Positions 5,070 to 46,506 of a DNA stretch of 64,000 nucleotides are shown piece by piece. A program made the position numbers and the translations under genes. This DNA is from Myxococcaceae bacterium (GTDB lineage: Bacteria; Myxococcota; Myxococcia; Myxococcales; Myxococcaceae), in NCBI GenBank assembly GCA_016793095.1, contig JAEUJQ010000090.1, positions 1 through 64,000 of the forward strand, in the 5' to 3' direction. Within the stretch, counting starts at the first letter, position 1. Each line of letters opens with the position of its first letter. The notes beneath the pieces were generated by a model. That model ran no database searches. It was given only the letters and a program-made list of their open reading frames with translations, and was not told the DNA's origin.

Positions 5070-5267
5070 GGGTGTGTGCCTTTCGTGCTGCGCGAGTTGC
5101 GGGATTCTGCTGCAGACAACGGGCCGCGCAAGTCGCCGGCTCAGGGGCGCGAAGCGAGGACCTCGAGTGTCCTCTCGTGCGGACAGTGACTGGAGCACGG
5201 ACACTCCGCTTCGCGGCGGCTGATCAGACGGCCTATCGCCCGCGCGCTCGTCGCATACACTGCGCGC

Positions 5268-6311
5268 ATGATGAACCTCGTGGTCGCGCTGCTCTTGTCT
5301 GCCTCGCCGGAGCTCGAGGAGGGACGGCTCCACATGGCGGCGCTTCGATACAAGGCGGCGGTGACGTCGCTGTCGAAGGTGGCCGACCACGCACAGGCGC
5401 CCGTGGCAGAGCGCCTCGAGGCCAACGACCTGCTCGCGCGGGCGCACCTCGCGCTCGGCAGCGCGGCGAAGGCGGAGCAGGCCTACGAGGCGTTGCTCGC
5501 CCTCGATCCAATGGCCGAAGAGCCGAAGGCAGCCCCGAAGGTGGTGGCGGCGTTCCGCCGTGCGAAGGAGCGCCGCTTCCCGCGCGACACCGTCCTCCTC
5601 GAACGTCGCGCGCGCAGCGTGGAGCTCGTCGAGGTGCGCGTCGTCAACCCGTGGAGGCTCACGGTCCACGCCGAGCTGATGGTGGCGACGGGTGAGACCT
5701 TCAGCCCGAGACGCATCGAGCTCGACGAGAAGCTGGTCGGCATCGCGACGCTGGTGCCGGGGTCGCGCTACTACCTGCGCTGCGTGAACGCCGAGGGCAA
5801 GGTGCTCGCCTCGGTCGGCTCGGCGCTCGAGCCGTTCGCTGGTCCGCCCGCGACTCCTCCGCCACCGCCAGTCGTGACCGTGACGACGGCTGACGCACCG
5901 ACGAAGGAGCAGCCTCCACCGCTGCCAACGTCAGACCGCGCACCCGTCGCGACGACGACGCCGAGACAGAGCCGCGGCGTGCTCGACCCGGTGCTCAACC
6001 CGCAGGTGCTCCCGATCTCGCGATCGATGCCGCTCGGCCGCGTCGCAGGGTGGGCGCTGCTGGTGGGTGGCGTCGTGCTCGCGCTCGCGGGCGGTGGCGT
6101 CATCGCGTGGGGGCTCTTCGACATCGACCGCGCGAACCGGTGGATCGAATACGACGACCTGGACCCCATCTCGGCGAATCGCCTCAAGCGGGAGGCCGAG
6201 GCGCGGGTGCTCTTCGGCGGCATCGGCGCGGGCGTCGGCGCGGTAGCGGCCATCATCGGCAGCGTGCTGCTCGGCGTGAGTCCGTCGGAGTCGGCGCCCG
6301 AGACGAACTGA
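5268..6311 (+). CDS. TPR-containing envelope protein with two C-terminal membrane segments
   Basis: A 347-residue protein. The N-terminus is a short hydrophobic signal (MMNLVVALLLSAS). Residues 15-100 form TPR-like helical pairs (LEEGRLHMAALRYKAAVTSLSK, ARAHLALGSAAKAEQAYEALLALDP). Residues 105-185 are a beta-rich region, followed by a Pro/Thr-rich linker at about 190-240. Two hydrophobic segments at about 263-285 and 312-335, separated by a charged stretch, end the protein. Similar TPR-linker-membrane-hairpin proteins are frequent in myxobacteria, often beside protein kinases, but have no assigned function. It is transcribed divergently from the SAAGG lipoprotein across about 200 bp and convergently with tnaA. 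Confidence 0.65.
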   Translation: MMNLVVALLLSASPELEEGRLHMAALRYKAAVTSLSKVADHAQAPVAERLEANDLLARAHLALGSAAKAEQAYEALLALDPMAEEPKAAPKVVAAFRRAKERRFPRDTVLLERRARSVELVEVRVVNPWRLTVHAELMVATGETFSPRRIELDEKLVGIATLVPGSRYYLRCVNAEGKVLASVGSALEPFAGPPATPPPPPVVTVTTADAPTKEQPPPLPTSDRAPVATTTPRQSRGVLDPVLNPQVLPISRSMPLGRVAGWALLVGGVVLALAGGGVIAWGLFDIDRANRWIEYDDLDPISANRLKREAEARVLFGGIGAGVGAVAAIIGSVLLGVSPSESAPETN

Positions 6312-7770: not shown

Positions 7771-8313
7771 TCACCACGAGAACGTCTTCGCGCGGTCGCA
7801 CGACGAGGCGATCTTGTCGCAAGCCGTCGTCTTCGTCGCCGTGGGAGAGCCGCCGTCGGCCGACGCGAGCGACGCGCACTGCTGGCCCTTCGCGAACGGA
7901 CGCAGCGACTCGATCTGCTCGACGTAGCAGGTGTTGAAGTCGGCGACCGTCGCAGTGCACGCCGGGTCCGCCATCACCATCGCGCAGCTGTCAGACGTGC
8001 CGCCGTCACTCGAGCCGGAGGACGCCTGGCAGTCGTTGAAGGCCATCGTGCACGCGCCGATGCCGGCATCAGGTCCACCGAAGGCGCTCGCGATGGCGCC
8101 GCCGATGAGGCTGGTGAGGCTGCAGCCGAACGTCTTCTTCTCGGCGGCCGTGAAGGCGGTCTCGAGGTACTTCTGGCGATCGCGACACAGCTGGCGCGTC
8201 TGATCGACGGACAGCGACGAGACCTGCGAGTTGCCGGGCACGCTGGTCTGCACTCCTCCGGCGCAGGCAGCGATGACGGCACAGACGACAACGGCTCCGA
8301 GGATTCGCTTCAT
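7771..8313 (-). CDS. Cysteine-rich lipoprotein, function unknown
   Basis: A 180-residue predicted lipoprotein. The ATG at 8313 is preceded by a GGGAGGGAAC ribosome site and followed by MKRILGAVVVCAVIAACAGG with lipobox IAAC. The mature part has nine or more cysteines, including CSLTS, DACTM-like spacing and C-terminal CDKIASSCDRA, and two short Asp-Gly-Gly spacers (SSDGGTSDSC, SADGGSP) of the sort common in myxobacterial surface proteins. Predicted mostly helical. It lies 75 nt downstream of the tnaA start on the same strand, so it could precede tnaA in a transcript. No family recognised. Confidence 0.7.
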   Translation of the reverse strand: MKRILGAVVVCAVIAACAGGVQTSVPGNSQVSSLSVDQTRQLCRDRQKYLETAFTAAEKKTFGCSLTSLIGGAIASAFGGPDAGIGACTMAFNDCQASSGSSDGGTSDSCAMVMADPACTATVADFNTCYVEQIESLRPFAKGQQCASLASADGGSPTATKTTACDKIASSCDRAKTFSW

Positions 8314-8422
8314 GGTTCCCTCCCTGGGTGATGGACGCGCCACCGACGATGGCCGCGGCACTCTATTCACAGGAGGCGCGCCGTCACGAAAGGAGCGACC
8401 TGGGTGGCGGCCTTCGCGGTCC

Positions 8423-9046
8423 TCACGCGGGCGCGGTGACGGCGCCAGCGGCTTCGAGCAGGCTGCGGTACCACTCCATGGTCGCCTGCGCGCGTCCGCC
8501 GAGCGCGGTCGTGCCCCAGACCACCGAGAGCGTCCTCGTCGTCGCGGGCGTGGTCTTGGTGCGCTGGGAGTCCTTCACGGCGTTGGCGCAGGGGCCCTCG
8601 GCGTCGAAGAGGCACACGAGGCCGCTCACGTCGATGGACTGGCCTGCCTGGTTGAAGACATAGGACGTTCCCTCGGGCGCGAGGGCGATGCGAAACGGCG
8701 GCGCGGCGCGCGAGAGGTCGACGACGCTGATGGGGAGACCGGAGTGCAGCGAGGCGACGTTGCACGCATCGACAGCCGCGTTGATGGAGCTCAGCGCGCC
8801 TTCGCTCACCGCGCGAATGAGATACTCGGAGGCAGGCTTGCCGCGGCCAGTCGGCTTGTAGCCACCGTGTCGGAGCAGCTCGCGCACCGCGCTCCGCACC
8901 CCGTCGGCGGCGGTCAGCGGCGCCGTGGCGGTCAGCGAGAGCATCGACATGAGCGGGTCGATGCGCCCGAGCTCGCCGAGCGGCGCCGGGAACGTGGTGA
9001 TGAACCAGCGCGCGTCGAGGAGCGGGTGGGCTTCGAGCTGAACCAT
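8423..9046 (-). CDS. Free-standing B3/B4 domain protein (PheT-like)
   Basis: A 207-residue cytoplasmic protein. The segment GYKPTGRGKPASEYLIRA followed by SSINAAVDACNVASLHSGLPISVVDLSRA matches the B3/B4 domain found in the beta subunit of phenylalanyl-tRNA synthetase and in stand-alone proteins that are thought to bind or edit tRNA. No catalytic synthetase domain is present, and the length fits the stand-alone family. Later motifs (GLVCLFDAEGPCANAVKDSQRTKTTPAT) also fit the B3/4 family, which has a conserved D-S-x-x-T segment. It is divergent from pomY across 230 bp. Whether it edits tRNA is not known from sequence. Confidence 0.75.
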   Translation of the reverse strand: MVQLEAHPLLDARWFITTFPAPLGELGRIDPLMSMLSLTATAPLTAADGVRSAVRELLRHGGYKPTGRGKPASEYLIRAVSEGALSSINAAVDACNVASLHSGLPISVVDLSRAAPPFRIALAPEGTSYVFNQAGQSIDVSGLVCLFDAEGPCANAVKDSQRTKTTPATTRTLSVVWGTTALGGRAQATMEWYRSLLEAAGAVTAPA

Positions 9047-15890: not shown

Positions 15891-16910
15891 TCACTTCTTG
15901 ACGACCTTCGCGACAGGGTCGAGCGCCGGCGCCTTGAGGCCCGCCGCCCAGTCCGCGTACTCCTTCTTGCGCGGCTCGAGCTTCGCGAGGCGGTCCTTGT
16001 TCACCGGGTGCGGCGTCAAGAAGCCGCCGTCGGGCAGCTTCGCGAGCAGCTTCTCGAACTCGCCCGGGTCGTACCCCGCGAAGACCATGAGGTCGTAGGC
16101 CACCGCGTCGGCCGCGTACTCGTAGTCGGGCCCGTTGCCGCGCGAGACGAGCTCGTCGGCCAGCCCGTCCGACAGCTTGACGATGAGGTCCGCGCTCGCC
16201 TTGTTGAGGTCGAGGTTGGCCGCGCTCAAGAGCCCCTCGAACTCGCTCGACAGGTTGACCGCGTCCTTCGCGGCGTTCGCCACCAGGCCCGCGCCCATCG
16301 CCACGCTGCACGAGGTCGCCTTCGTCTTCGAGTAGGCCTTCATCGCGTGCCGGCCGGTGATGTGGCCGATCTCATGCCCCAGCACGCCCGCGAGCTGCGC
16401 CTCGTTCTCGACCGCGGCGATCATGCCGGTGGTGATGAAGACGTAGCCGCCCGGCGCCGAGAACGCGTTCGGCGTCGTCGAGTCGAGCACGACGAACGTC
16501 CAGTCGAGGCCAGGCCGCTCGGAGTTCGCCGCCAGCGTCTTGCCGATGCGGTTGACGTACGCGGTGAGGTCGGTCTTCGGCCCCTTGCCCGGCTTCGGCT
16601 TCACGCCCGCCTGCGGCATCGCCTTCTCGAGGTCGGGAGAGATCTCGATGTACACGCCGCTGGTGCGACCCGCGAGGTTGAGCGCCACCGCGCCGCCGAT
16701 GCCGGTCTCCTCCTCGTAGGTGGCCTGCTGCTTCTCGAGCGCCGCGCACTGCTTCTGCTTGGCGTCGATCTTCTTGCGCTCGGCCTCGAGCTCCGCCGCG
16801 CCTGCCGCCAGGCCGCGCGCGTCACCCCGCGCGGCGGCGTTCATCGTCCGCTGCAGCGCCGCACACCCAGACACCGCCACCACGCACACCGCGATCAAGA
16901 GCTTCTTCAC
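15891..16910 (-). CDS. M48-family zinc metalloprotease lipoprotein (copy 1)
   Basis: A 339-residue lipoprotein beginning at GTG 16910 (VKKLLIAVCVVAVSGCAA, lipobox VSGC). A short coiled coil (about residues 35-60) precedes the peptidase domain. Motifs: NAFSAPGGYVFITTGMI, the zinc site HEIGH in LGHEIGHITGRHA, and the third-ligand region EYAADAVAYD. These match M48 proteases of the BepA/Oma1 type, which degrade or help fold outer-membrane and periplasmic proteins. The start overlaps the stop of the SH3-like gene by 4 nt (GTGA). A second copy of this gene pair is at 44927-46506, also with GTGA. Confidence 0.88.
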   Translation of the reverse strand: MKKLLIAVCVVAVSGCAALQRTMNAAARGDARGLAAGAAELEAERKKIDAKQKQCAALEKQQATYEEETGIGGAVALNLAGRTSGVYIEISPDLEKAMPQAGVKPKPGKGPKTDLTAYVNRIGKTLAANSERPGLDWTFVVLDSTTPNAFSAPGGYVFITTGMIAAVENEAQLAGVLGHEIGHITGRHAMKAYSKTKATSCSVAMGAGLVANAAKDAVNLSSEFEGLLSAANLDLNKASADLIVKLSDGLADELVSRGNGPDYEYAADAVAYDLMVFAGYDPGEFEKLLAKLPDGGFLTPHPVNKDRLAKLEPRKKEYADWAAGLKAPALDPVAKVVKK

Positions 16911-17386
16911 CTGGCGCCTCCTTTCGACTCCACGGTGACGCTGGCGGCGACGCCCTCGGCGGTCGCGATGCCCTTCACCAGCTCGGCCTTCGTCTGCTTC
17001 TTCCCCGCCGCCTTGAGCGCCGCTTCGTTGAGCGCCTTGGTGGCCGCGCCCGACGACGCGAACGCCTTGCCGTCGATGGCGGCGCCGTTGTCGCGCGCGA
17101 GCAGCTCGGCCTGCGGCTTCGACGGCGACAGGTTCGCCTGCAGCGTGAAGCCCTTCACCTTGCCGGTGTCGACGGCGTGGAACTGCTTGTTCTTCTCGTC
17201 GGCGCCGTTCCAGGTGACCTCTTCGCCCGGCTGCAGCGTGCCCACCACCTTCGCCTTCGGGTCGGCCTTCTCGAACACCTTCGAGTCCTTCTGCTTGATG
17301 TACAGCTTGCCGCCCTTCGAGACGGCGAGCGCTGGCGTCGCGAGCAGACAGCACGCGATGGCCAGGCGGATGAGTCGATGAGTCAT
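16907..17386 (-). CDS. Secreted SH3-like domain protein (copy 1), partner of M48 protease
   Basis: A 159-residue exported protein (signal peptide MTHRLIRLAIACCLLATPALA). Residues 20-85 resemble a bacterial SH3-like domain: LAVSKGGKLYIKQKDSKVFEKADPKAKVVGTLQPGEEVTWNG, with the x-V-x-x-L-x-x-G-x-x-V pattern. The second half is helical with the phrase AIDGKAFASSGAATKALNE, which is nearly repeated in the second copy at 45931-46506. Such domains usually bind cell-wall peptides or partner proteins. It overlaps the M48 gene by 4 nt, implying coupled expression and a shared task. The start at 17386 is used because it directly precedes the signal peptide. Confidence 0.7.
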   Translation of the reverse strand: MTHRLIRLAIACCLLATPALAVSKGGKLYIKQKDSKVFEKADPKAKVVGTLQPGEEVTWNGADEKNKQFHAVDTGKVKGFTLQANLSPSKPQAELLARDNGAAIDGKAFASSGAATKALNEAALKAAGKKQTKAELVKGIATAEGVAASVTVESKGGAR

Positions 17387-17409
17387 GCACTGCTCCGGGT
17401 TGGTGGGAC

Positions 17410-19869
17410 TCACTTCTCGAGCGCCACTGCGCCGTCCCAGTCGGGCGGTGGCGGGTTGAGGCCGTATTGGAAACAGCGGGACTTCAGCGTCTTTGAAGGC
17501 CCATCGGAAGGATCAAGTTCGAGGACCTTGTCGAAGGCGCGCTGGGCCTCGGGGAACCGTCGGTTGCGGTAGAGGGCCAGCGCCAGGGCGTAGGCGTCGA
17601 GCACCGCGAGCCGCTCGGCGGGCACCTCGCCCTTGAGGCCCACCAGCTCGAAGATGCGCGTGGCGATGGACTTGCCGGCGACCTTCACGGTGTCCACCTC
17701 GCGGGCGATGACGTCGTTCTTCACCGCCTCCCAGGTGTTCTGCCCCATGAGGATGAGCGTGTCGTAGTGCTTGTTGGCGGCCTCGAGGCGGGCGGCCAGG
17801 TTCATGCCGTCGCCGATGGCCGTGTAGTCGAGCAGGTCGTCGGAGCCGATGTTGCCGACCAGCAGCGTGTCGGTGTTGAGGCCGACCCGCGTGGCGAGCT
17901 CGGGCAGGCCGTGGCTCGAGAACTCGACGTTGAGCTCCTTCAACACGCGCTGCACCTCGAGCGCCCCCCGGCAGGCCTGCAGCGCGTGGTCCGCCGACGG
18001 GACCGGTGCGCCGAAGAGCGCGACCACCGCGTCACCGATGTACTTGTCGATGCACGCGTGGTGCTTGCGCAGGGCCGGCGTCACCGCGCTGAGGTAGCGG
18101 TTCAAGAACCGCATGAGGCCCTTCGGGTCTTCGCGGAACGTCTCTGACACGGTCGAGAAGCCGCGAATGTCGGAGAAGAAGGCGGTCACGCGGCGGGCCT
18201 CCCCATCGAGGCGCGGCAGCGTCTGACCTTCGATCATGACATCGACGAGGTCCGCCTCCATGTACGCGCGGAACATCTCCTTGATGCGCTCGCGGTCGCG
18301 GCTGGCGAAGAGCCGCTCCCAGGCGACGCACAGCACCGAGGCGATGGTGCCGGCGAGGCCAGGCATCGCCGAGAGCACGTGGATCTTCGTGAGCACGAGG
18401 AAGCTGCCGGTGAGGAGGAAGAAGCCGACGTAGATGAGGGCCGGCCAGCCGACGTCCACGAAGACGTTGCGCACCACCAGCACGAGCGCGCACGAGAAGA
18501 AGCACATGAAGAAGGTGAACAGCACCGAGGCCCACAGCGGCGCGTCGGTGATGAAGCCGTCGTGCAGCAGGTTGTCGAAGGTGGCCACCTGCTTCACCAC
18601 GCCAGGGGTGGCCGACTCGAGCGGGGTGGCGCGCGCGCCGTCGCCAGTGCCCAGCGCGAACCCGCCGAGGAAGACGTACTTGTCCTTGAAGCGCTCACCC
18701 TTGTCGCCGCGGTTCTTCAGCTTGAGGACGTCCACCAGCGAGATGGACGGGAAGCGGTCGTCGAGCTTGCCGGCGTAGTCAATCCACGCCGCGCCGTCGG
18801 GGTCGATGTCGTAGCTGCGCGGGCCGATGGTGAGCTTGCCGGGCTCGAGCTCGATCTTGTCGGCGCCGAACGCGTCGGCGATGGCCGCGACCGGGAACGT
18901 CACGTAGGTGTTGGCGCCGTCGGTGTACGCGAAGCGGGTGCGCCGCATCTTCCCGTCCTCGTCCTCCTCCTGCAGCACCAGGCCGTACCCCGACACCGCG
19001 TCGCGCACGGCGTCGATGGTCGCCACCGGGTTCGCCTTGACCATGCGCCCCGTCTTCTCGCCGCGCTCATCGGCCTCCTCCTGCTCGGGCAGCGCGGGGA
19101 GCGTCAGCCCGCCCTTCACCACCACGGGGAACGCGTAGACGCGCGCGTTCTCGGCGAGCCTCGCCTCGAGCTTCTTCGCGGCCGCGTCGTCGGCGCCGGC
19201 GTCGGGCGCGCTGGCGGTCGCCTCGTCACCGGGGAACTCCTCAGAGGGGAACTCCTCCGACGGAAACTGCTCGGCGCCCTTCTCGTCGGCGCCTTCCTTC
19301 ACCGGCGCGAGCGCCGGCTCGGCCTTGCGCACCGGCGGGTGGTTGACGGGCGTGTCCACCCGCGGGAGCGGCGGCGCCGTGGGTGAGACGTTGAACCCCA
19401 GGTACAGCGGAATGCCGTGCTCGGTGAGCGTCTGGCCGAGCGCCAGGTCGCCGGTGCCGTCACCCTTCATGTTGTCGAGGATGGCGTCGAAGAGGATCTG
19501 CTTCGCGCCCGCCTGGTGAAGGTACTCGAACACGTCGGCGTAGATGACCCGGTCGTAGGGCCAGGAGCCGTAGCGCTGCCGCAGCCCCTCGATGCCCTCG
19601 ATCTCAGCGAACGTCTTGTCGTCGATGGCGACGATGACGATGTCGTCGCTGCGCTTCACCTTGCCCCAGGGGAACCAGGCCTTGCCGGTGAACTTCTTCA
19701 CCCCGTCGTCGTAGGCCGCGCGCTCGTCGTCGCTGATCTCGAGCAGGTCGAAGTGCCACCACACGAAGGACAGCGTGGTGGCGATGAGCGACACGCCCAC
19801 CATCACGAGCCAGTTGCGCGTGAAGCGGAGCGCGATGATGCGGAGGACCTTGCGCACGGAAGGCGTCAC
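17410..19869 (-). CDS. CHASE2-domain class III adenylate cyclase with C-terminal TPR
   Basis: An 819-residue membrane sensor. One helix near residues 19-37 is followed by a large extracytoplasmic CHASE2 region (about 70-430, DDIVIVAIDDKTFAEI through KYVFLGGFALGTGDGARATP) interrupted by an acidic insert (SEEFPSEEFPGDE). Three hydrophobic helices at about 450-520 lead to a class III cyclase domain. Both metal-binding Asp motifs (TAFFSDIRGFS, DKYIGDAVVALFG) and LDYTAIGDGMNLAARL are intact, so it should make cyclic AMP. TPR-like helices follow (YRNRRFPEAQRAFDKVLELDP). The CHASE2 ligand is unknown. It precedes the SH3-like/M48 pair on the same strand by 23 nt and may be co-transcribed. Confidence 0.85.
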   Translation of the reverse strand: MTPSVRKVLRIIALRFTRNWLVMVGVSLIATTLSFVWWHFDLLEISDDERAAYDDGVKKFTGKAWFPWGKVKRSDDIVIVAIDDKTFAEIEGIEGLRQRYGSWPYDRVIYADVFEYLHQAGAKQILFDAILDNMKGDGTGDLALGQTLTEHGIPLYLGFNVSPTAPPLPRVDTPVNHPPVRKAEPALAPVKEGADEKGAEQFPSEEFPSEEFPGDEATASAPDAGADDAAAKKLEARLAENARVYAFPVVVKGGLTLPALPEQEEADERGEKTGRMVKANPVATIDAVRDAVSGYGLVLQEEDEDGKMRRTRFAYTDGANTYVTFPVAAIADAFGADKIELEPGKLTIGPRSYDIDPDGAAWIDYAGKLDDRFPSISLVDVLKLKNRGDKGERFKDKYVFLGGFALGTGDGARATPLESATPGVVKQVATFDNLLHDGFITDAPLWASVLFTFFMCFFSCALVLVVRNVFVDVGWPALIYVGFFLLTGSFLVLTKIHVLSAMPGLAGTIASVLCVAWERLFASRDRERIKEMFRAYMEADLVDVMIEGQTLPRLDGEARRVTAFFSDIRGFSTVSETFREDPKGLMRFLNRYLSAVTPALRKHHACIDKYIGDAVVALFGAPVPSADHALQACRGALEVQRVLKELNVEFSSHGLPELATRVGLNTDTLLVGNIGSDDLLDYTAIGDGMNLAARLEAANKHYDTLILMGQNTWEAVKNDVIAREVDTVKVAGKSIATRIFELVGLKGEVPAERLAVLDAYALALALYRNRRFPEAQRAFDKVLELDPSDGPSKTLKSRCFQYGLNPPPPDWDGAVALEK

Positions 19870-24408: not shown

Positions 24409-25860
24409 GTGCTGACGACAGGGACCCGGCTACGGGAGTACGAGGTGTGGGGCCGCATCGGGGGCGGTGGAATGAGCGACGTCTTCCTCGCGCGGCACGT
24501 CGACCTCTCGGCGCCCGTCATCGTGAAGACGCTCAAGCTGTCGGTGGACTCCGATGCTCGTGAGCGCGCCGGCCGCCTGCGCACCGAGGCCGTCATCACC
24601 GCCCGCATTCGCAGCCACCGGGTGGTGCGACCCCTCGACGTGGGAACCACCGACGAAGGCACGCCGTACCTGGTGCAGCAGTACGTCGATGGCCTCGACC
24701 TGCTCGAGCTCGACGCGTCTCGGCGGCGCGCCCTCGGCGTGGGGCTGCCGCTCTGGTACGTGTGCGAGGTGACGGCGCAGATGGCCGGCGCGCTCGCGGC
24801 GGCCCACCGCACCGGCGTGCTGCACCGCGACCTCAAGCCGTCGAACCTCTTCGTCTCACCGGAAGAGGGCGTGCAGCTCGGCGACTTCGGCGTAGCGGTG
24901 GCGCGCGGCGAGAAGGTGGGTCAGCCCATCGAGCTGGCAGGCACCCTCGAGTACATGGCGCCCGAGACGCTGCGCGGCGGCGTCTTCGACCGCGGCACCG
25001 ACGTGTACGGCCTGGGCGCCACGGCCTTCCAGCTCCGCTATGGGCGCGCCCCGTACGCCTCGATGCGCGACGTGCTCGATCCGTCGATGCAGCCGAACTT
25101 CCCCCGACCCGAGAGCCCCGAGGAGGCCTACTTCCAGCAGGCGGTGGCGCAGATGCTGGAGCAGAACGTCCAGGACCGGTGGAACGACATGAGCCAGGTG
25201 GTGTCAGCCTTCACGAGGCTGGCGGACCTCGTGCGGCGGCCGCTGCACGTGTCGCGGCTGCCCGACGGCTTCCAGGTGATGGGCGTGAAGGTGACGACGC
25301 GCACAGGAGACCTCGCGGCGGCGAGCGCTGACGCCGCCGTCTGCTCGGCCAACTCGGAGTTCACGATGGACGTCGGCGTCGGGGCGGCGCTGGTGAAGCG
25401 AGGTGGGCGTGCCATCGAGGACGAAGCGAAGGCGGGTGGCGCGAAGCCGCTGGGCGCGTGCATCTCGACGGGTGCAGGCACGCTGCCCTTCAAGCGCGTG
25501 TTGCACGCCGTGGCGGCGTGGGAAGAGGTCTCGTGCGTCGCGCGCTCAGCGCAGCGCGCGCTGTTGCTCGCCGAGGCAGAGGGGCTGAAGACGCTCGCGG
25601 TGCCTGCCATCGGCACCGGCGCGGCCCGCGTCAGCCTGGAGTCCTCCGCGGCGAGCCTCGCGGCCACGCTCGAGCTGCACCTGCGGCTGGGCGGCACGAA
25701 GCTGACCCACGTGGACTTCATCCTCTACGACGAGACCAGGCGGCGCGCGTTCGCCGAGGTGCTCGAGTCCGTCTTCCTCGGGGGCGGGTACGCGCACGAC
25801 ATCGGCCGGGTGGACTCAGGCGTGTTCTCGCCTGACGACAGCACCGTCCTCCGGAAGTAG
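24409..25860 (+). CDS. Ser/Thr protein kinase fused to a C-terminal macrodomain
   Basis: A 483-residue cytoplasmic protein with GTG start. The kinase domain (about 10-275) is complete: glycine-rich loop GGGGMSDVF, K40 in VIVKTLK, HRDLKPSN at 139-146, DFG at 159-161 and APE at 184-186. Residues about 287-455 look like a macrodomain: TGDLAAASADAAVCSANSEF resembles the GDIT...NAAN start, GVGAALVKRGG the first ligand loop, and VPAIGTGAARVS the second. Macrodomains bind or remove ADP-ribose. There is no transmembrane helix, so it should act in the cytoplasm. The fusion suggests phosphorylation linked to ADP-ribose sensing; this is inference. Upstream gap to the Sel1 gene is 89 bp. Confidence 0.8.
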   Translation: MLTTGTRLREYEVWGRIGGGGMSDVFLARHVDLSAPVIVKTLKLSVDSDARERAGRLRTEAVITARIRSHRVVRPLDVGTTDEGTPYLVQQYVDGLDLLELDASRRRALGVGLPLWYVCEVTAQMAGALAAAHRTGVLHRDLKPSNLFVSPEEGVQLGDFGVAVARGEKVGQPIELAGTLEYMAPETLRGGVFDRGTDVYGLGATAFQLRYGRAPYASMRDVLDPSMQPNFPRPESPEEAYFQQAVAQMLEQNVQDRWNDMSQVVSAFTRLADLVRRPLHVSRLPDGFQVMGVKVTTRTGDLAAASADAAVCSANSEFTMDVGVGAALVKRGGRAIEDEAKAGGAKPLGACISTGAGTLPFKRVLHAVAAWEEVSCVARSAQRALLLAEAEGLKTLAVPAIGTGAARVSLESSAASLAATLELHLRLGGTKLTHVDFILYDETRRRAFAEVLESVFLGGGYAHDIGRVDSGVFSPDDSTVLRK

Positions 25861-37800: not shown

Positions 37801-39213
37801 GGCCCGGGTGCCGGCGGCCGAGGGACGGAACTCCACGGCGACGGCGCAGGTGCCGGCGCCCGCCACCGTCTGCCCGCTGCAGGTGTCCATGCCCCTGACG
37901 AAGTCACCGGCGTTGGCGCCGCCGATGGTGACGGCCAGCGCGGGCGTCGTCGTTTGACCGGTGTTGGTGATGGTGAAGACGAGGGTGTTGCCGACGGCGC
38001 CAGCAGCGGTGTCGTTGAAGATGCCGGGGCTCGGCATCGCAGAGAGCGTCGCGGGCGTCTGACCGGTCGCGCTGAGCGTCGCGGACGCCATGCCGCCGGG
38101 GCTGGCCGAGACCGCGAGCGTCGCCGTCCGCGCCCCGGTAGCCGTCGGCACGAAGACGATGGTGACGGTGCAGGACCCGGCCGGCGCAATCGATGACGTG
38201 CAGGTGTTGCCGCTGATGGTGAACATCGCGCCGTCGGCGCCGGTGACCGCGACGTTGGGAATCCCCGTGGGCGAGCCGCCAGGGTTGGTGATGGTGAAAG
38301 CCTGGGGCATCGAGCTGCTCCCCAGGCCAACGCCGCCGAAGTTGTGCGTCATGGGCGCGATGGAGAGCGAGGCCGCGAAGGCCCCCTGGCCCGAGAGCGC
38401 GACTGAGCGGCTCCCGCCCGGCGAGGCGCTCACGTCGAGGCTGGCCGTGAGCGTCCCCGTGGCCGCGGGCGTGAAGACGAGGGACACCTGACAGGACGAG
38501 GCAGGCGCGAGCGCGCTCGTGCACGTCGTCCCCTGGATGCCGAAGGCGTTCGCGTTGGGACCGGTCAGCGTCACCATCAGCACGCCGGTGGGCTCATCAC
38601 CGGTGTTGGAGACGATGACGGTCACCGGCTGGCTCGAGTTCCCGACGGTGACGCCGCCGAAGTCGTGCGTCATGCGATCGACGGTGACCTGCGCCGGGAG
38701 GCCCGCGTCGGGCGTACCGCCGTCGTCAGCCATGCCGCCCGCGCTGCCGCCTGCACTCCCGCCTGCGCTGCCACCTGCGCTCCCGCCTGCGCTGCCACCG
38801 GCGTCGCCGCCAGCCGTTCCGCCAGCCGTTCCGCCAGCGTCACCGCCAGCCGTTCCGCCAGCGCTGCCACCCGCTGTCCCACCAGCCGTGCCGCCAGCGT
38901 CACCGCCAGCCGTTCCGCCAGCGCTGCCGCCTGCCGTGCCGCCAGCGCTGCCACCCGCTGTCCCACCAGCTGACCCGCCGCCGACGCCACCGCCAACCCC
39001 GCCGCTCGAGCCGCCGGCAGTTCCACCGCCCGCCACGCCGCCCGCAGTCGCGCCACCGTCAGCGGAGCGACACTGCCCCACGACACAGACCTGCCCCGTC
39101 GGGCAGTCCGCATCGGTGTTGCACTTCGCGCCCTCAGGGATGGCGATGGCGCACCCGCTCGCCGCGACCCCGACGACTGCCACTGAGAACACTGCGAGGT
39201 TGAGTCGCGTCAT
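34858..39213 (-). CDS. Very large repeat lipoprotein with choice-of-anchor-D/Hydin-like repeats
   Basis: A 1451-residue predicted lipoprotein (MTRLNLAVFSVAVVGVAASGCAIA, lipobox ASGC). A Cys motif CNTDADCPTGQVCVVGQC is followed by a long Gly/Ser/Thr/Ala linker. Eight repeats of about 100-115 residues then share DFGxVxxGxxSxxxxxxxxNxGxxxTG, the choice-of-anchor-D / ASPM-SPD-2-Hydin-like beta domain. The C-terminal third contains an InlB-B-repeat-like part (SRLYDHNASVTVRAHTTNGS) and two DUF1554-like domains with Cys and Trp (NLIFVSSQSFAATLGS, AYITTNTFTPSTQGS). It is probably a surface adhesin or decoration protein. It overlaps the upstream TPR/PEGA gene by 4 nt. Confidence 0.8.
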   Translation of the reverse strand: MTRLNLAVFSVAVVGVAASGCAIAIPEGAKCNTDADCPTGQVCVVGQCRSADGGATAGGVAGGGTAGGSSGGVGGGVGGGSAGGTAGGSAGGTAGGSAGGTAGGDAGGTAGGTAGGSAGGTAGGDAGGTAGGTAGGDAGGSAGGSAGGSAGGSAGGSAGGMADDGGTPDAGLPAQVTVDRMTHDFGGVTVGNSSQPVTVIVSNTGDEPTGVLMVTLTGPNANAFGIQGTTCTSALAPASSCQVSLVFTPAATGTLTASLDVSASPGGSRSVALSGQGAFAASLSIAPMTHNFGGVGLGSSSMPQAFTITNPGGSPTGIPNVAVTGADGAMFTISGNTCTSSIAPAGSCTVTIVFVPTATGARTATLAVSASPGGMASATLSATGQTPATLSAMPSPGIFNDTAAGAVGNTLVFTITNTGQTTTPALAVTIGGANAGDFVRGMDTCSGQTVAGAGTCAVAVEFRPSAAGTRAGLLTVGAMGVIPAPVVLSGMGLEPALLRFAGPTLSFGSVATGASATAVISVSNVGQVPTGLPSFSAMPSPEFIFVSSTCGTSIPPSGSCSVTFRFSPAALGARTGTGTGSATPGGMATVTLQGSGVTPGALAITPSNPDFGSAVVGQAGSFVNFTVSNTGMTALSGLTTAIGGTASSSFLISNNTCTSMLAGMGSCTLRVTFQPQSAGALSAFLTASAGSNTAQATLSGTGQAPAALRISPASHTFPSVVVGQSDSQVFTVQNVGDVSSGTVQVTLGGANPSHFQIQSSTCTSSLTPLASCSFRVLYSPTTAANHSASVTATASPGGMATASLTGSAISPAQLTLAPASGSSVNYGNVLLGGNVSMSFTVTNTGQQASGPLSLSLSGTNASQWQVSSGTSSCQLGQPLAGGASCTSSVRFTAFSANGNGMKTATLTASATPGGSQALALTANVQNPAQLAVTLTSHDFGSGEVGVNSSPLTWTIQNTGDVATGTLSLVNSNLADFDASGCAGTLAPGMSCNVSVVFSPDAGGTRNGTITVSATPGGSVALSATGRGQWRLTIVASFSGGLVSTTDNLLMNCGSSGCSRLYDHNASVTVRAHTTNGSGSRFTGWVAPSGTCTAYGNGHLCNVTMTGHTTANARFLPISHNLIFVSSQSFAATLGSATAYDTQCNTLATTAGINNAAGTNFVAWMSTDSNTPLAAARLGTGKGAFYRMDNTLFALSETDLLAHRVLSAPNLDEYGRYTSASVWTGTYGDGTANAPNDCTNWTSTSGTAERGVSTGGPSRWSVAFAGYSCSSTARIYCLSKASTTAVAMPTVPSGGKVAYITTNTFTPSTQGSGFLSLDTFCNNNKPSGFTTRTFVAFAASTAITAASRVDVAATYYRTDGMRIGTGADLVGPPPTGVGLWRATDGSYVVGETHAWTGASSPTALATTATNCFNFTSGGVDGLVGRAPSVTSDFFSLGSAVCSSARRLYCVEP
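38734..39050. repeat. 12-bp-unit tandem repeat coding a Gly/Ser/Thr/Ala linker
   Basis: Tandem units of about 12 bp (consensus GCCGCCAGCGCT-like on the plus strand, with variants GTTCCGCCA and CACCGCCAG) encode a linker of GGSA, GGTA and GGDA tetrapeptides in the large lipoprotein. A larger block of about 40 bp recurs twice inside the array, which suggests block duplication on top of single-unit slippage. Unit length keeps the frame. Confidence 0.8.
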
Positions 39214-40172
39214 CGCCCCTCCACGAAGAACAGAACCACCGCGGTAATCGCTGCCGCGCCGGCCACGCCGTACGCGATGTTCGCACCCGTCGCGAGCCCC
39301 TGGGCCGCCTGGGCTTGCTGCGGGGCCATGCCGATGGGCGCGTTCGGGACCTGCGCCGCCGTGTTCTGCGCCACCACCCCCAACCCCACACCCGCGCCCG
39401 CGGCCGCCACCGCGGCTCCGCCAGCCACCCACGTCCAGAGCCGCCCCTTCTTCGGAGGCTCTGCCCCCTTCGACACTTCAGTCCCTGGCGGCGTCGTCAC
39501 GTCTTTCTGCGGCGTGAGGTTCGCGGTCTTCGTGCCATCGTCCTTCTTCGGGGCATCGACGAGCGGCGGAGGAGGCGGCGGCGGGTCCACCGGCTTCGCG
39601 GCTGCGGGCCGCAGGTTGATGGTCATCTCGGTGGCGCGCTGCACCTGCATCACGAAGGAGCGCTCCATCGTCTCGAAGCCGTCGGCCTTCACCACCAGCT
39701 TGTGGTTGCCCGCCGTGAGCTCGACGGACGCGGGCGAGTTGCCCAGCACCTTGCCGTCCACCTCGATGACGGCGTTGGGAGGGTCGGCGAAGACGAGCAG
39801 CTGCTGGAGCCCCTTCTCTCTCAGGCGACGCTCGAGGTTCGCGATGGCGTCGTTGACCGTGTCCTTGTCCTTCGCGTCGGGCGACATGCGCAGGTAGTCG
39901 CGGTACGAGCGCAGCGCCTTCGGCACGTCGCCGAGCTGCTCGTGGCACCGGCCGATGTTGTAGAAGAGCACCGGGCTGGGCTTGAGCGCGTACGCCTCCT
40001 CGAACCTGACGATGGCGTCCGCGTAGCGCGCTTCTTTGTAGAGCTTCTGCGCTGCGAGGAAGGCCTCCTTCGCCTTCTGGGTCGCGTCCTCGGCGGCGGC
40101 GGGCTCCGGCTTCTTCGTGGGTTTGGCGGGCGCAGAGACGACGAGCGCCACGCAGAGCGCGGGTGCGAACAC
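39210..40172 (-). CDS. TPR and PEGA domain envelope protein with C-terminal membrane segments
   Basis: A 320-residue exported protein (signal MFAPALCVALVVSAPA). Residues about 30-115 are TPR helices (AFLAAQKLYKEARYADAIVRFEEAYALKPSPVLFYNIGRCHEQLGDVPKALRSYRDYL). Residues about 125-185 form a PEGA domain (LLVFADPPNAVIEVDGKVLGNSPASVELTAGNHKLVVKADGFETMERSF). A Pro/Lys linker precedes a hydrophobic segment at about 243-268 and another near 295-318. The gene overlaps the large lipoprotein by 4 nt, and the FHA-kinase-PEGA gene lies 21 nt upstream on the same strand, so the three probably form one transcription unit linking a kinase to surface proteins. Confidence 0.78.
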   Translation of the reverse strand: MFAPALCVALVVSAPAKPTKKPEPAAAEDATQKAKEAFLAAQKLYKEARYADAIVRFEEAYALKPSPVLFYNIGRCHEQLGDVPKALRSYRDYLRMSPDAKDKDTVNDAIANLERRLREKGLQQLLVFADPPNAVIEVDGKVLGNSPASVELTAGNHKLVVKADGFETMERSFVMQVQRATEMTINLRPAAAKPVDPPPPPPPLVDAPKKDDGTKTANLTPQKDVTTPPGTEVSKGAEPPKKGRLWTWVAGGAAVAAAGAGVGLGVVAQNTAAQVPNAPIGMAPQQAQAAQGLATGANIAYGVAGAAAITAVVLFFVEGR

Positions 40173-40193: not shown

Positions 40194-42272
40194 CTACTGG
40201 TACGGGTCCTTCAGGTCTTCCGTCGGGTGGGCGTACGGGTCCTTCAGCTCGTCACCCTTCGGCTTCGACGGCCCCGGCCCACCGCCACGCTTCTTCTCGA
40301 GCTCGAAGCTGCGCGCCTCGTCGGCGAGCGGCACGGCCACCTTCTTCGTGAGCTCCTGGTAGCCCTTGAGCACGAACCTGAGCTCGACCACCGACTGAGG
40401 AGGACGCGACAGCACGAAGGGCGTGACGCCGAGCGACACGTCACCTTCGAAGACCTCGACGCCGTCCGGCTTCGTCTCGAGCGTCAGCTTGACGAGCTTC
40501 GGGGTGGCGTCCACGGGCGGCGGAGCGTCCACCTTCGGCGGCTCCACCTTCGGAGGCGGCTCGGCGATGGGCGTCACCACCTTCACCGGCTCGGGTTCAG
40601 GCCCGGACTGGAACAGGAGCACGCCCCCGCCCACCAGCAGCGCGACGACGGCCAGCCCTGCGACCACCAGCGGCGCCTTCGACTTCTCGACCGTCGGCGG
40701 CGGGAGCGTGTCCTCCAGGCCGGACGTCGGGACAGCAGCAGTGAGCGCCACCGGGGCTCCGGAGGAGGTGACGCGGACCGGGCTCAGCGTGTGCGGCGTC
40801 GCGGTGGACGGGAAGCGCCCCGACGTGCTCGCGGGCGGCAGCGGCGCCCCCACCTTGAGGTGCGCCTCGAGCGTCTCGAGCAGCTCGACGACCTTGTCGA
40901 GGTTCCCCGGCCGCACGTTCGGGTCCTTCTCGAGCATCTGGAAGATGAGGTCGTGGAGCGCCGCGGGGATGGTCTGCGCCAGCTCGGGCGGGAAGGGCGG
41001 CGACGGCTCCGTCACCTGCTTCACCATGAGGATGCTGGCGGTGTCGCCCTTGAAGGTCGGCGCGCCGGTGAGCATCTCGTAGAAGATGAGGCCGAGCGCG
41101 TAGATGTCGGTGCGCAGGTCCACCGCCACCCCCATCGCCTGCTCGGGCGACATGTACTGCGGCGTGCCCACCACCATGCCGAGCTGGGTCTGCCCGCCCT
41201 GCCCCGGTCCGGTGGAGACCTTCGCGACGCCGAAGTCGAGCACCTTCACGAAGTCCGGCTGCCCGGGCCGCTGCAGCACCATGACGTTCTCGGGCTTCAT
41301 GTCCCGGTGCACGATGCCCTGCGCGTGGGCCGCCGCGAGCGCGCGCGCCGTCTGCAGGCCGATCTTCACCATGCGCGGCACCGGCATCGCGCCCTGTCGA
41401 TGGAGCAGGCTCGCGATGGTGACGCCGTCGAGGAACTCCATCACGAAGTAGAAGCGCCCGTCGTCGGTCTGCCCGAAGTCGGAGATGTCGATGATGTTCT
41501 GCTGGCCGATGCGGCTCGCCGAGATGGCCTCGCGCTTGAACCGGTTGACGAACTCGGGGTCGCTCGAGAGCGCCGGCAGCATCACCTTCACCGCGAACTG
41601 CTTGTGCAGCTCGACGTGCTCGGCCTGGTACACCTCGCCCATGCCTCCGGCCGCCAGCTTCTTGATGATGCGGTAGCGGTCGGCGATGAGGGCGCCCTCG
41701 GGCAACACCGTGCGCGACGGGCTGAGGGTCTGATCATCCACGGCCGTCCCCGCGGGCACGTAGGCGCCGGAGAGCTTCGTCCGGTCCTCGTGGCTCGACG
41801 GGGCTGGCGGCGTGAGCTGCGGCAGGTTCACCTGGCTCGCGCGGACCTGGCTCTGCTTGCCGCTCGAGCGTACCGGTGGCGAGGCGAACGGCGTGGGGCG
41901 CTTCGCGGTGGCGTCCACCGGCACCGACGCGAAGGGGGTCGGGCGCTTCGCGGTCGAGTCGAGGCGCACTTCAGCCGGCCCTGCGGGGCGCACCTCGAGG
42001 TCGAGCTGCCCAATCCGCACCATGGCGCCGAGGGTGAGGGCCGACCTCGAGGTCTGCGTGCCGTTCACCCAGAGCAGGCCCTTGTTGGTGAGGTCGCGGA
42101 TCCACGGAACGCCCTTGCCGTCGAAGACGACCTCCGCGTGCTCCGGCTGAACGAGCCGCGCGTCGAAGCGCAGCGCGACGTGAGGCCCCGAGCCGATGGT
42201 GAAACGCTGGGAAGGAAAGGCAAAGCCCGGAGCTTCGGGCGCTCCTGGCATGGCGAACTCGAACGCGCTCAT
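40194..42272 (-). CDS. FHA-domain Ser/Thr protein kinase with transmembrane helix and PEGA domain
   Basis: A 692-residue membrane kinase starting at ATG 42272. An N-terminal FHA domain (about 15-100, RFTIGSGPHVALRFDARLVQPEHAEVVFDGKG) binds phosphothreonine. The kinase domain (about 199-460) has AAGGMGEVY, K in FAVKVML, HRDMKPENV near 322, DFGVAK and SPEQ. A transmembrane helix at about 540-560 leads to a PEGA domain (about 597-645, DGVEVFEGDVSLGVTPFVL) in the periplasm or cell surface. The extracytoplasmic part could sense envelope state. It is divergent from the MopE-type CxxCH gene and 21 nt upstream of the TPR/PEGA gene. Confidence 0.9.
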   Translation of the reverse strand: MSAFEFAMPGAPEAPGFAFPSQRFTIGSGPHVALRFDARLVQPEHAEVVFDGKGVPWIRDLTNKGLLWVNGTQTSRSALTLGAMVRIGQLDLEVRPAGPAEVRLDSTAKRPTPFASVPVDATAKRPTPFASPPVRSSGKQSQVRASQVNLPQLTPPAPSSHEDRTKLSGAYVPAGTAVDDQTLSPSRTVLPEGALIADRYRIIKKLAAGGMGEVYQAEHVELHKQFAVKVMLPALSSDPEFVNRFKREAISASRIGQQNIIDISDFGQTDDGRFYFVMEFLDGVTIASLLHRQGAMPVPRMVKIGLQTARALAAAHAQGIVHRDMKPENVMVLQRPGQPDFVKVLDFGVAKVSTGPGQGGQTQLGMVVGTPQYMSPEQAMGVAVDLRTDIYALGLIFYEMLTGAPTFKGDTASILMVKQVTEPSPPFPPELAQTIPAALHDLIFQMLEKDPNVRPGNLDKVVELLETLEAHLKVGAPLPPASTSGRFPSTATPHTLSPVRVTSSGAPVALTAAVPTSGLEDTLPPPTVEKSKAPLVVAGLAVVALLVGGGVLLFQSGPEPEPVKVVTPIAEPPPKVEPPKVDAPPPVDATPKLVKLTLETKPDGVEVFEGDVSLGVTPFVLSRPPQSVVELRFVLKGYQELTKKVAVPLADEARSFELEKKRGGGPGPSKPKGDELKDPYAHPTEDLKDPYQ

Positions 42273-42393
42273 GAACGGTTGGAACCTAGCATGTCGCCAG
42301 GCGTTCCGTCGGATCATCCCGGCTGACTTCGCGGGTGTTCACGACCGGAGGCAGTTGTCAGCGAGCCCTGCAGGGTCTTTGCTGCGCTCCCCC

Positions 42394-43806: not shown

Positions 43807-44952
43807 ATGACCGGCGAAGCGCCTCGACAGCTGCTGGCAGCGATTGGGTCCGCGCTCGGCCTGGCGGGGCCGTACGCGCCTGACGAGTTCACCCGCGTGC
43901 ACGACGGCGTCGTGCGCGACGACGGCGCCGTGGCGTGGGTCGAGGAGCGGCGCGTCGGTGAGGACCGCGGCGGCTTCGTCGACTGCTCGCTGACGCTGAA
44001 GGCCGCGTGGGGCGGCGCGCTCCACCTCGAGGGCGAGCTGCCCAGCTACAACCCGTACTTCGGCTGCCTGGTGTACGGCCTCACGTGGACGGCGGACGAG
44101 CGGGTGGTGCTCGCCTACCACGAGAAGCACGCCGCCATCGTCAGCGTGTGGACGATGGCGGGCGCGGTGCGGCTGGTTCGCTGCGACCTCCACGACGTCG
44201 CAGCCCTCTCGAGCGACCTCGTCGTCTTCAGAAGCGACGAGCCCGGGCTGCTCCACGTGCTGCCCGTCAGCCCCCTCATCCTCGCCACTCCGCTGCCGGT
44301 GCCTGACGCGGAACGCGACTTCACCTTCACCCGCGACGGCTCGCTGCGGCACCGCGACGGCCTCGTGCGCCCGCCGTCCGTCGAGCAGCGCGCGCGGCCC
44401 ACCGACGCCCGCGCCTTCGTGGAGGCAGTGGTGGCGCGCCTGGCGCGCGAGGTGGCGGTGAGCCGCGAGGTGCTCGAGCTGCTCGCCGGCTCGTGCTGCG
44501 AGCCCTTCTGGGCGCCGGCGCCCACCGTCGCGACGTCCTACGCCGGCCTCTCGCGCCCATCCTACGAGCCGTCGCTGCGCCACTTCCCCGCCTGGCGACA
44601 CCGCTGGCTCCGCGTGCATGGCCGCGACCGCGAGGCCGACGCGCTGCTCGTCGCCTTCGACGCGCTCGAGCCCAGCGCGCCGCTCACCGGCTGGGACGCC
44701 TCCTGGACCGCCGGGCCTGGCGTCGTGGAGCTCGCTGCCCAGCACCTCTGCGCCTGCGCCTCCCGCCTGCGGCAGCTCTGCGCGACCGGCCGGCTGCCCG
44801 CGGGACGGCGCGAGCGGCTGTTCGACTTCCGCCCCCGAGCGCGCGGCGACCTCGCGAGGTTGCCCGCCTCGCTGCAGCGCGCGTACGCCGAGGTCGCGGC
44901 CTCGCCACCGCCGCCGTTCTCCGAGGTCAGCGAGCCGCCGTCTTCGGGGTGA
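43807..44952 (+). CDS. Hypothetical cytoplasmic protein
   Basis: A 381-residue protein without signal or transmembrane segments. It is rich in Arg, Ala and Trp. The first half has beta-strand character (GAVAWVEERRVGEDRGGFVDCSLTLKAAWGGALHLEGEL, TWTADERVVLAYHEKHAAIVSVWTMAGAVRLVRCD), the second is helical with several Cys. No motif or family recognised. It follows the MopE-type gene after 171 bp in which I see no other gene, and its 3' end overlaps the convergent M48 gene by 26 nt. Confidence 0.5.
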   Translation: MTGEAPRQLLAAIGSALGLAGPYAPDEFTRVHDGVVRDDGAVAWVEERRVGEDRGGFVDCSLTLKAAWGGALHLEGELPSYNPYFGCLVYGLTWTADERVVLAYHEKHAAIVSVWTMAGAVRLVRCDLHDVAALSSDLVVFRSDEPGLLHVLPVSPLILATPLPVPDAERDFTFTRDGSLRHRDGLVRPPSVEQRARPTDARAFVEAVVARLAREVAVSREVLELLAGSCCEPFWAPAPTVATSYAGLSRPSYEPSLRHFPAWRHRWLRVHGRDREADALLVAFDALEPSAPLTGWDASWTAGPGVVELAAQHLCACASRLRQLCATGRLPAGRRERLFDFRPRARGDLARLPASLQRAYAEVAASPPPPFSEVSEPPSSG

Positions 44953-45934
44953 GGCCAGCCGTGATGCGGGGGTCGAGCGCCACCTTCGGGTTCTGCTCCC
45001 ACCCGAAGTCCCGCCACGTCGACGACAGCCGCGCCTCGACGGCCTTCGTGCGCTCCGCCGGCAGCGGGTGGTTCGGGTAGACGCTCTTCGTGTCTGCCGG
45101 CAGCTTCGCGAGCAGCGCCCGGTACTCCTGCGGCTCGTACCCGGCGACGACGAGCAGGTCCGTCGCGAGCTGGTCGGCCTCGAGCTCGTCCTTCTGGGAG
45201 AAGCCCTTCGAGACGATGAGGTCGATGACGGGGTCGATGGCCTTCTCGAAGGCCAGCTTCGACAGCTTGTCACCAGAGACGATGGTGCCGGTGCGCGCGC
45301 GGCTGCCGTTGTTGGCGCTGATGTTGACGGTGCCGATGGTGCTGGCGCGCCCGGTGTCGGCGTAGCACTGCGCGGCCTTGCTGGTGCGGTAGACGTGCAG
45401 CGCGTGGCGCAACGTCACGTGGGCGACCTCATGCGCCAGCACGCCCGCGAGCTGCGCCTCGTTCTCGACCTGCTCGAGCAGCCCGGTGGTGACGAGCACG
45501 TAGCCGCCGGGCGCAGAGAACGCGTTGGGGACCTTCGAGTCGATGACGGCGAACGTCCAGGGAATCTCCGGGCGCGCGCTCACCCGCGCCACCTGGTGGC
45601 CCACCTCGGCGACCGCGAGGTTCAGCTGGTCGCTGACTGACTGGTCCGGCCGGGGCGCCACCGCGGTCGCGCCTGCGTCCGCCGGGGCTCCACCGTCTGC
45701 GCTCGCGAGCAGCGCCTCGGGCGGAGCGGGCGCCACCACGAAGCCTCCGCTGCGTGAAGCGAGCGAGAGGGCGAGGGCGCCGCCGAGGTCGCGCTCCTCG
45801 TCCCACCCCACCTCCGACTCGCCGATGCGCTTGCAGGCCGTGCTGCCGGGCAGGTGCTTCGACACGAGGGCGCACGTCGGCAAGGTGGCGAGCCACCACA
45901 CCAGCAACGGCCAGGGCGCGCGACGGACCGTCAC
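44927..45934 (-). CDS. M48-family zinc metalloprotease (copy 2)
   Basis: A 335-residue exported protein with GTG start at 45934 overlapping the SH3-like gene's stop by 4 nt (GTGA). Leader VRRAPWPLLVWWLATLPTCALV has a Cys near the end that could be lipidated. Motifs: NAFSAPGGYVLVTTGLLEQVENEAQLAGVLAHEVAHVTLRHA with zinc site HEVAH, and third-ligand segment ELEADQLATDLL. It shares these and the ending NHPLPAERTKAVEARL with copy 1 but has lost the coiled coil. Likely periplasmic, with a role in envelope protein quality control inferred from M48 homologues. Confidence 0.87.
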   Translation of the reverse strand: MTVRRAPWPLLVWWLATLPTCALVSKHLPGSTACKRIGESEVGWDEERDLGGALALSLASRSGGFVVAPAPPEALLASADGGAPADAGATAVAPRPDQSVSDQLNLAVAEVGHQVARVSARPEIPWTFAVIDSKVPNAFSAPGGYVLVTTGLLEQVENEAQLAGVLAHEVAHVTLRHALHVYRTSKAAQCYADTGRASTIGTVNISANNGSRARTGTIVSGDKLSKLAFEKAIDPVIDLIVSKGFSQKDELEADQLATDLLVVAGYEPQEYRALLAKLPADTKSVYPNHPLPAERTKAVEARLSSTWRDFGWEQNPKVALDPRITAGLTPKTAAR

Positions 45935-46506
45935 TTCTTCTTCCCCTTCTTCCCCTTCTTCACGGGAGGCGCCGGTGGCGGTGGCTCGGGGAGGGGCTCG
46001 CGCTGGGCCAGGCCGAGCCGGGCGGCGCGCTCATCGCTCTTCGCCTGAGTGATGGAGGCGTTGATGGCTTCGACGGCCAGCAGCCGCCGGGCCTGCTCTT
46101 CGAGGTTCTTCGACGACGCGTACCCGAGGGCGCCCTCGCCCAGCGCCTTGGTGGCTGCACCCGACGACTTGAAGGCCTTCGCGTCGATGGCGGCGCCGCC
46201 GGTGGTGAGGAACTCGGGGCTCGGCGCGGTCGGCCCGAGCGCCGCCTGGAACATGTAGCCCTTCACCGGCTGCTTCGAGGCGTCGAGCCACTCCACCTCG
46301 TGCAGTTGGCGGTTCTGCGCGGCGGCGCCCTTCCACGTCACCCGCGCGCCGAGGGGCAGCGTCGCGACCGTCTTCGCCTTGAAGTCCGGCGCCTCGAGCA
46401 GCTTCGCGTCGTGGGTGCGCACGAAGAGGGCGCCGCCCTTCGACACGGCGAGCGCCGTGGCCGCGGCCAGGGTGGTGACGAAGGCGAGACGGGTCAATCG
46501 ACGCAT
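45931..46506 (-). CDS. Secreted SH3-like domain protein (copy 2)
   Basis: A 191-residue exported protein (signal MRRLTRLAFVTTLAAATALA). It aligns by eye to copy 1 at 16907-17386: SKGGALFVRTHDAKLLEAPDFKAKTVATLPLGARVTWKG and AAIDAKAFKSSGAATKALGEGAL match the equivalent segments. Compared with copy 1 it carries an extra C-terminal tail rich in Pro and Lys (PPPPAPPVKKGKKGKKK). It overlaps its M48 partner by GTGA exactly as copy 1 does. The Ig-like lipoprotein gene is upstream by 52 nt. Confidence 0.7.
   Translation of the reverse strand: MRRLTRLAFVTTLAAATALAVSKGGALFVRTHDAKLLEAPDFKAKTVATLPLGARVTWKGAAAQNRQLHEVEWLDASKQPVKGYMFQAALGPTAPSPEFLTTGGAAIDAKAFKSSGAATKALGEGALGYASSKNLEEQARRLLAVEAINASITQAKSDERAARLGLAQREPLPEPPPPAPPVKKGKKGKKK

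Follow-up and report, generated by a model that had tools for sequence, protein, structure and literature searches.

On the forward strand of the window, the 64,000-nucleotide stretch of Myxococcaceae DNA analysed here, lies an open reading frame that joins a Ser/Thr kinase to a macrodomain (Table 1). It begins with GTG, a plausible start since ATG occupies the aligned place in the homologues L040 and L041. The two domains follow each other over a short linker, and the protein ends in a tail predicted to be disordered. In a full-length two-domain model (pTM 0.84), which comes without an inter-domain error matrix and from which no kinase-macrodomain interface is claimed, about 5 residues separate the last kinase helix (261-275) from the first strand of the macrodomain (281-284). 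No transmembrane-like segment was found in the protein (maximum 19-residue hydropathy 1.19), and for this reason it is expected to be soluble and cytoplasmic. In NCBIfam, the N-terminal part matched PknB-type kinases best and the second part PRK00431.2, "ADP-ribose-binding protein"; all these scores lie below the curated equivalog cut-offs.

Table 1. Position of the kinase-macrodomain gene and of its features in the window.
Feature	Residues	Position	Strand	Basis
Whole gene, kinase-macrodomain fusion	483 aa	24409..25860	+	GTG start, stop included
Hanks-type Ser/Thr kinase domain	11-263	24439..25197	+	Pfam PF00069, E 1.3e-34; Foldseek to PknB/PknI kinase domains
Catalytic (VAIK) lysine	K40	24526..24528	+	Invariant in 13 homologues
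Catalytic loop HRDLKPSN	139-146	24823..24846	+	H139, R140, D141, K143, P144, S145, N146 invariant
DFG motif	159-161	24883..24891	+	Invariant
Short linker	276-280	25234..25248	+	DSSP on full-length model; similar length in all homologues
Macrodomain	~287-456	25267..25776	+	Pfam PF01661; PDB profile search; AlphaFold2 model and fold comparison
D301 of GD[LI] motif, expected adenine N6 contact	301	25309..25311	+	Invariant in 13/13 fusions, 22/23 stand-alone macrodomains
Ligand loop 1 and next helix (SANSEFTMDVGVGAALVKRGG)	313-333	25345..25407	+	Alignment of fusions and stand-alone macrodomains
Ligand loop 2, pyrophosphate loop (PAIGTGAARVS)	399-409	25603..25635	+	P399, A400, G402, T403, G404, V408 invariant
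Predicted disordered tail	458-483	25780..25857	+	pLDDT <50

Kinase half, macrodomain fold and ligand pocket

The residues that define a Hanks-type kinase, namely the VAIK lysine, the helix-C glutamate, HRD, DFG and APE, are all present, and K40, E60, H139-R140-D141, N146, D159-F160-G161 and P185-E186 are invariant among 13 homologues. Judged from these positions, the kinase half is intact and apparently working. Its fold and catalytic motifs resemble those of the PknB/StkP-type kinases (PknB and PknI of M. tuberculosis, PknB of S. aureus). Those kinases, however, carry a transmembrane segment and PASTA domains where the fusion has its macrodomain. The protein does not belong to the PASTA kinases (PknB/Stk1), having neither a transmembrane segment nor a PASTA Pfam match, and its score against the PASTA-kinase equivalog was 159 bits, versus a cut-off of 450.

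In the second half, the Pfam Macro family matched residues 312-415 (E 2.7e-15, 56.8 bits versus a curated cut-off of 22). When the 202-residue C-terminal part was compared as a single sequence with solved structures, PARP14 (7e-16) and TTHA0132 (4e-15) were retrieved. A profile of the 13 homologues gave PARP14 at 6e-30, TTHA0132 at 8e-23, PARP9 at 2e-19 and macroH2A1.1 at ~4e-13, YmdB and MacroD1/D2 being similar to macroH2A1.1 or weaker (3e-13 and below). The AlphaFold2 model of this part (mean pLDDT 84, ~90 over most of the core) shows strands and helices alternating as expected, and its top Foldseek matches were all macrodomains or fusions containing one. VIA-align superposed it on PARP14 3vfq with Z 26.4 and rmsd 1.4 over 172 residues, and on macroH2A1.1 1zr3 with Z 26.3. 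The macroH2A/PARP9/PARP14 group thus gives the best profile matches and the top Z, MacroD structures being only 1-2 Z units away. On profiles and predicted fold, we regard the C-terminal stretch as a real macrodomain.

The first-pass annotation, made from the letters alone, had described a "fully intact" Hanks-type kinase with a C-terminal macrodomain in one soluble protein, and had named a fold check of residues 287-455. Every catalytic motif being invariant in the 13 homologues, the kinase deserves that description. Pfam, the PDB profile search and the AlphaFold2 fold agree on both domains in one frame, residues 287-455 are predicted to fold as a macrodomain (Z ~26 to PARP14 and macroH2A1.1), and the hydropathy profile accords with a soluble protein.

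The macrodomains of PARP14, PARP9 and macroH2A1.1 are alike in fold (Z ~25-26) and closest by sequence profile, and the aligned PARP14 sequence, as the fusion, is without the MacroD catalytic aspartate. Against all three, however, the fusion macrodomain is only 20-28% identical, sits on a bacterial kinase, and has a shorter loop after the HAV strand and another loop 2. TTHA0132, a stand-alone macrodomain of Thermus thermophilus and the second-best profile match, superposes with Z 25.1 at 30% identity; unlike the fusion, it is a single-domain protein.

The three macrodomain-like ligand loops of the first-pass annotation were all located: SANSEF at 313-318, GVGAALVKRGG at 323-333 and VPAIGTGAARVS at 398-409. 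A lack of conserved loop residues in homologues had been named there as a possible refutation; instead, D301, G323 and the P399-A400-x-G402-T403-G404 stretch are invariant in 13/13 fusions. The claim has to be softened for SANSEF, the least conserved of the three. Its asparagine N315, the residue expected at the distal ribose, is retained by 10 of the 13 fusions, and the three Archangium members (SPAVPEL/PQL) have lost it. EcThsA binds the adenine N6 through D83 and the distal ribose through N114, and the pyrophosphate through G218/T220 in its second loop (PMC11204291). We assign D301, N315 and G402-T403-G404, from their motifs, as the counterparts of these pocket positions. Since an EcThsA N114A mutant still bound ADP-ribose (PMC11204291), loss of N315 in Archangium need not by itself abolish binding. 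The same loss, with the shorter loop after the HAV strand, indicates that the ligand may differ or that binding may be weak.

The catalytic positions of MacroD-type hydrolases tell another story. In OiMacroD, D40 is the catalytic aspartate, H44 the assisting histidine and Y134 the distal-ribose aromatic (PMC5413906). The places of these three residues are taken by G325, V329 and A406 in the window protein, and no acidic, histidine or aromatic residue is conserved there in the fusion family. Among 23 stand-alone Myxococcota macrodomains used for comparison, most have the canonical GGGGVD...H...STGxYGYP and keep the catalytic residues. Relative to these 23, the loop after the HAV strand is shortened in the fusions, and M320, L348, C351, A370, S375, C376, R407 and LGG 427-429 are fusion-specific. 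Macrodomains that act as readers lack the activating residues (PMC10789625). By the criterion of that work, a pocket kept while the catalytic residues are gone is the pattern of a reader or sensor, as far as can be judged from residues. Without the MacroD-type catalytic residues, the fusion macrodomain is unlikely to hydrolyse ADP-ribose, and binding is more to be expected.

Distribution, evolution and genomic surroundings

The first-pass annotation had advised looking for the same fusion in other Myxococcota. Full-length fusions were found in 12 further genomes of this phylum, from several lineages and including isolates, at 49-78% identity. Two genomes of the same genus have 76-78%, G050 has 67%, three Archangium genomes have 54-55%, and six additional members (L043, L045, L047-L050), of Polyangiaceae/Labilithrix type and related MAGs, have 49-52%. 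An alignment-based pattern scan of 84,980 species returned 11 loci, each with a Myxococcota or Deltaproteobacteria annotation and six of them being the additional members just named, whereas a contig scan with a single macrodomain sequence gave 0 matches. In plasmid records, no place covering 80% of the fusion protein was found. Presence of the fusion in the isolates Archangium violaceum Cb vi76 and A. lansinium, and in G052, a single contig of 12.5 Mb, rules out a frame artefact or a MAG or binning error.

When 195 Myxococcota genomes were searched with a profile, the seven fused macrodomains scored 308-329 bits and the next one, stand-alone, 92 bits. Because of this gap, the fused macrodomain counts, by sequence, as a separate family. 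Kinase and macrodomain distances correlate with r = 0.94, with a mean of 0.42 for each, and the tree of the full protein and that of the kinase contain the same well-supported groups. A single ancient fusion event, with joint inheritance of both domains and patchy presence, would fit these trees and distances. Fusions of independent origin were sought among 14 stand-alone Myxococcota macrodomain matches in long frames, and in none of them did tblastn with the kinase of the window protein detect a kinase. Estimates of dN/dS (NG86), which are rough in GC-rich genes, were 0.10-0.28 for the kinase and 0.08-0.29 for the macrodomain, values indicative of purifying selection on both domains.

The tail is poorly conserved except for a single threonine, T479 (25843-25845), present in 12 of 13 aligned rows and often with acidic residues nearby and hydrophobic ones after it. 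FHA domains bind such phospho-threonines. T479 might accordingly be a phospho-threonine docking site, which we note as a lead only. The other kinases examined had no evident C-terminal tail of this kind.

Around the gene, the window encodes a CHASE2-adenylate/guanylate cyclase, an M48 peptidase, a di-haem oxidoreductase, an Ldi-like protein and unnamed genes. Across 12 homologous loci no partner gene is conserved between clades, synteny being limited to close groups, and no writer or effector was found conserved beside the fusion gene. As the clades have no neighbour in common, the protein probably does not depend on a dedicated partner in an operon.

Two similar gene pairs, in which a small gene precedes that of an M48 peptidase, lie at 15891-17413 and 44927-46506 of the window (both -), and a homologous M48 pair at L035 10941-12580 (+) is directly upstream of the kinase-macrodomain gene, on the same strand. 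In the three Archangium genomes, cytochrome bd genes and an ADP-ribosylglycohydrolase gene lie ~4-8 kb from the fusion gene, with the bd genes in between; in A. lansinium they occupy L037 14114-18736 (-). This glycohydrolase is >99% identical among the three genomes, most neighbours being 80-98% identical. It was given no weight as evidence, since it is not near the fusion gene in the other fusion genomes tested.

Possible ligands and role of the macrodomain

Sources of a ligand were sought in the genomes that carry the fusion. No TIR_2 match and no KptA match was found in the window's genome, G003, G004 or G050, and DarT, hence a DarTG partner, was absent from all seven fusion genomes tested; these absences are weakened by the fact that three fusion genomes are MAGs 80-89% complete. 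A PARP domain was found in the window's genome and in none of the six other fusion genomes tested. Sirtuins and ADP-ribosylglycohydrolases were present in all seven, and both, the sirtuins as a source of O-acetyl-ADP-ribose, count for the best explanation below. Given the TIR_2, KptA and DarT absences and what all seven genomes contain, a signal made by TIR proteins is a less likely input than ADP-ribose, O-acetyl-ADP-ribose or mono-ADP-ribosylation of proteins. The PARP domains of the window's genome are encoded by two adjacent genes of locus L095 (G000:C85:129000-141000), at 2464-4422 (+) and 4435-5886 (+), matching PF00644 with E 3.6e-48 and 1e-12; an ADP-ribosylglycohydrolase gene (7873-8985, -) lies ~2 kb beyond the pair.

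Since the window's genome has no TIR_2, DarT or KptA match, the fusion is not accounted for by any known macrodomain-coupled system. The macrodomain of the Thoeris effector ThsA offers a precedent for a bacterial macrodomain serving as receptor for an ADP-ribose-type molecule (PMC11204291). ThsA, however, is a transmembrane effector paired with TIR proteins, and the fusion has neither: it lacks a transmembrane segment, its genome a TIR_2 match, and its macrodomain part a PADLOC match. A working model of another kind is ALC1, a human chromatin remodeller in which a macrodomain attached to an ATP-using enzyme inhibits the ATPase until poly-ADP-ribose binds (PMC10789625). ALC1 is a chromatin-remodelling ATPase rather than a kinase, and the whole protein is not homologous to the fusion.

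The reading we favour, with a probability of roughly one half, is that of a cytoplasmic Ser/Thr kinase that carries its own ADP-ribose sensor and is controlled by a macrodomain that binds and does not hydrolyse. The macrodomain would take up ADP-ribose, O-acetyl-ADP-ribose, a related adenine dinucleotide or protein-bound ADP-ribose without cleaving it, and its occupancy would change kinase activity within the same molecule, in the manner of the release of ALC1 autoinhibition. We infer binding, the identity of the ligand, control of the kinase and the direction of that control alike. Three observations speak for intramolecular control: the linker is short, the two domains diverge together, and a partner gene is missing. 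More tentatively, the protein could be the founding member of a family of ADP-ribose-gated kinases, one-protein receptors that would convert NAD+ breakdown products or ADP-ribosylation into Ser/Thr phosphorylation, with autophosphorylation of T479 as output for FHA-domain proteins; we consider this possible rather than probable.

The pocket could also serve for targeting, an always-active kinase being docked by its macrodomain on ADP-ribosylated proteins, which would thereby be marked for phosphorylation. The macrodomains of PARP14, PARP9 and macroH2A are the closest solved relatives, and the window's genome does have a PARP-domain gene pair with a glycohydrolase gene nearby. But the fusion genomes tested share no writer, neither PARP nor DarT, and so tight a linker is more in keeping with intramolecular control than with free docking. 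We hold targeting to be unlikely, though not far-fetched. Less probable still is that the pocket no longer serves ADP-ribose and that the macrodomain is a scaffold for dimerisation or protein binding of the kinase. Such a role would agree with the loss of the loop-1 asparagine in the Archangium clade and with the many fusion-specific invariant residues outside the classical motifs (C351, A370, S375, C376, L427-G428-G429). A pure scaffold, however, would have no need of the adenine aspartate and the phosphate loop, which stay invariant at ~49-55% identity, and PARP14 macrodomain 3 has no asparagine at the aligned place and was yet crystallised with ADP-ribose (4abk).

That the protein is a bifunctional enzyme, a kinase joined to an active ADP-ribosyl hydrolase or eraser, appears very improbable, as the catalytic aspartate, the assisting histidine and the distal-ribose aromatic all lack conservation in the family, even if single OiMacroD mutants of N30 or D40 retain partial activity (PMC5413906) and one macrodomain of PARP14, the nearest solved relative, is a catalytically active eraser (PMC10789625). 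We give hardly any credit to an anti-phage role, in which the macrodomain would sense a TIR-made nucleotide, as in macro-type Thoeris (PMC11204291), and the kinase would be the effector. TIR domains are plentiful in the Archangium genomes with the fusion, and the kinase resembles the anti-phage PD-T4-6 kinases of PADLOC; that match, however, is unspecific and limited to the kinase, TIR_2 is missing from the four genomes named above, the named neighbours are not defence genes, and nothing is conserved beside the fusion gene.

Kinases and macrodomains are each known alone. A conserved family that fuses them and lacks the MacroD catalytic residues is undescribed in the literature searched, whose coverage is incomplete; within that coverage, the first-pass remark that no well-studied system has this domain order still stands. 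Keyword passages of PMC9503650, PMC8195603 and PMC7694542 likewise show no such fusion. Kinase-macrodomain fusions of separate origin may exist in other phyla. Its conservation suggests an undescribed switch that would convert ADP-ribose into a phosphorylation signal. Most bacterial Hanks kinases have no known input and most bacterial macrodomains no known output, and the fusion would supply both. One soluble protein of 483 residues, amenable to work in vitro, would pair a defined, ADP-ribose-like ligand class with an output that can be measured as kinase activity. Gating of the kinase by the macrodomain, if real, would couple bacterial protein phosphorylation directly to NAD+ metabolism or ADP-ribosylation.

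Other kinase genes are present in the window. A Ser/Thr kinase of 707 aa with an N-terminal FHA domain and a weak PEGA match is encoded at 40194-42317 (-), next to a gene for a protein with TPR and PEGA (39210-40172, -). At 61016-61882 (-), a protein of 288 aa consists of a kinase domain only; its Pkinase match ends at profile position 195 of 263, and its C-lobe is probably truncated or divergent.
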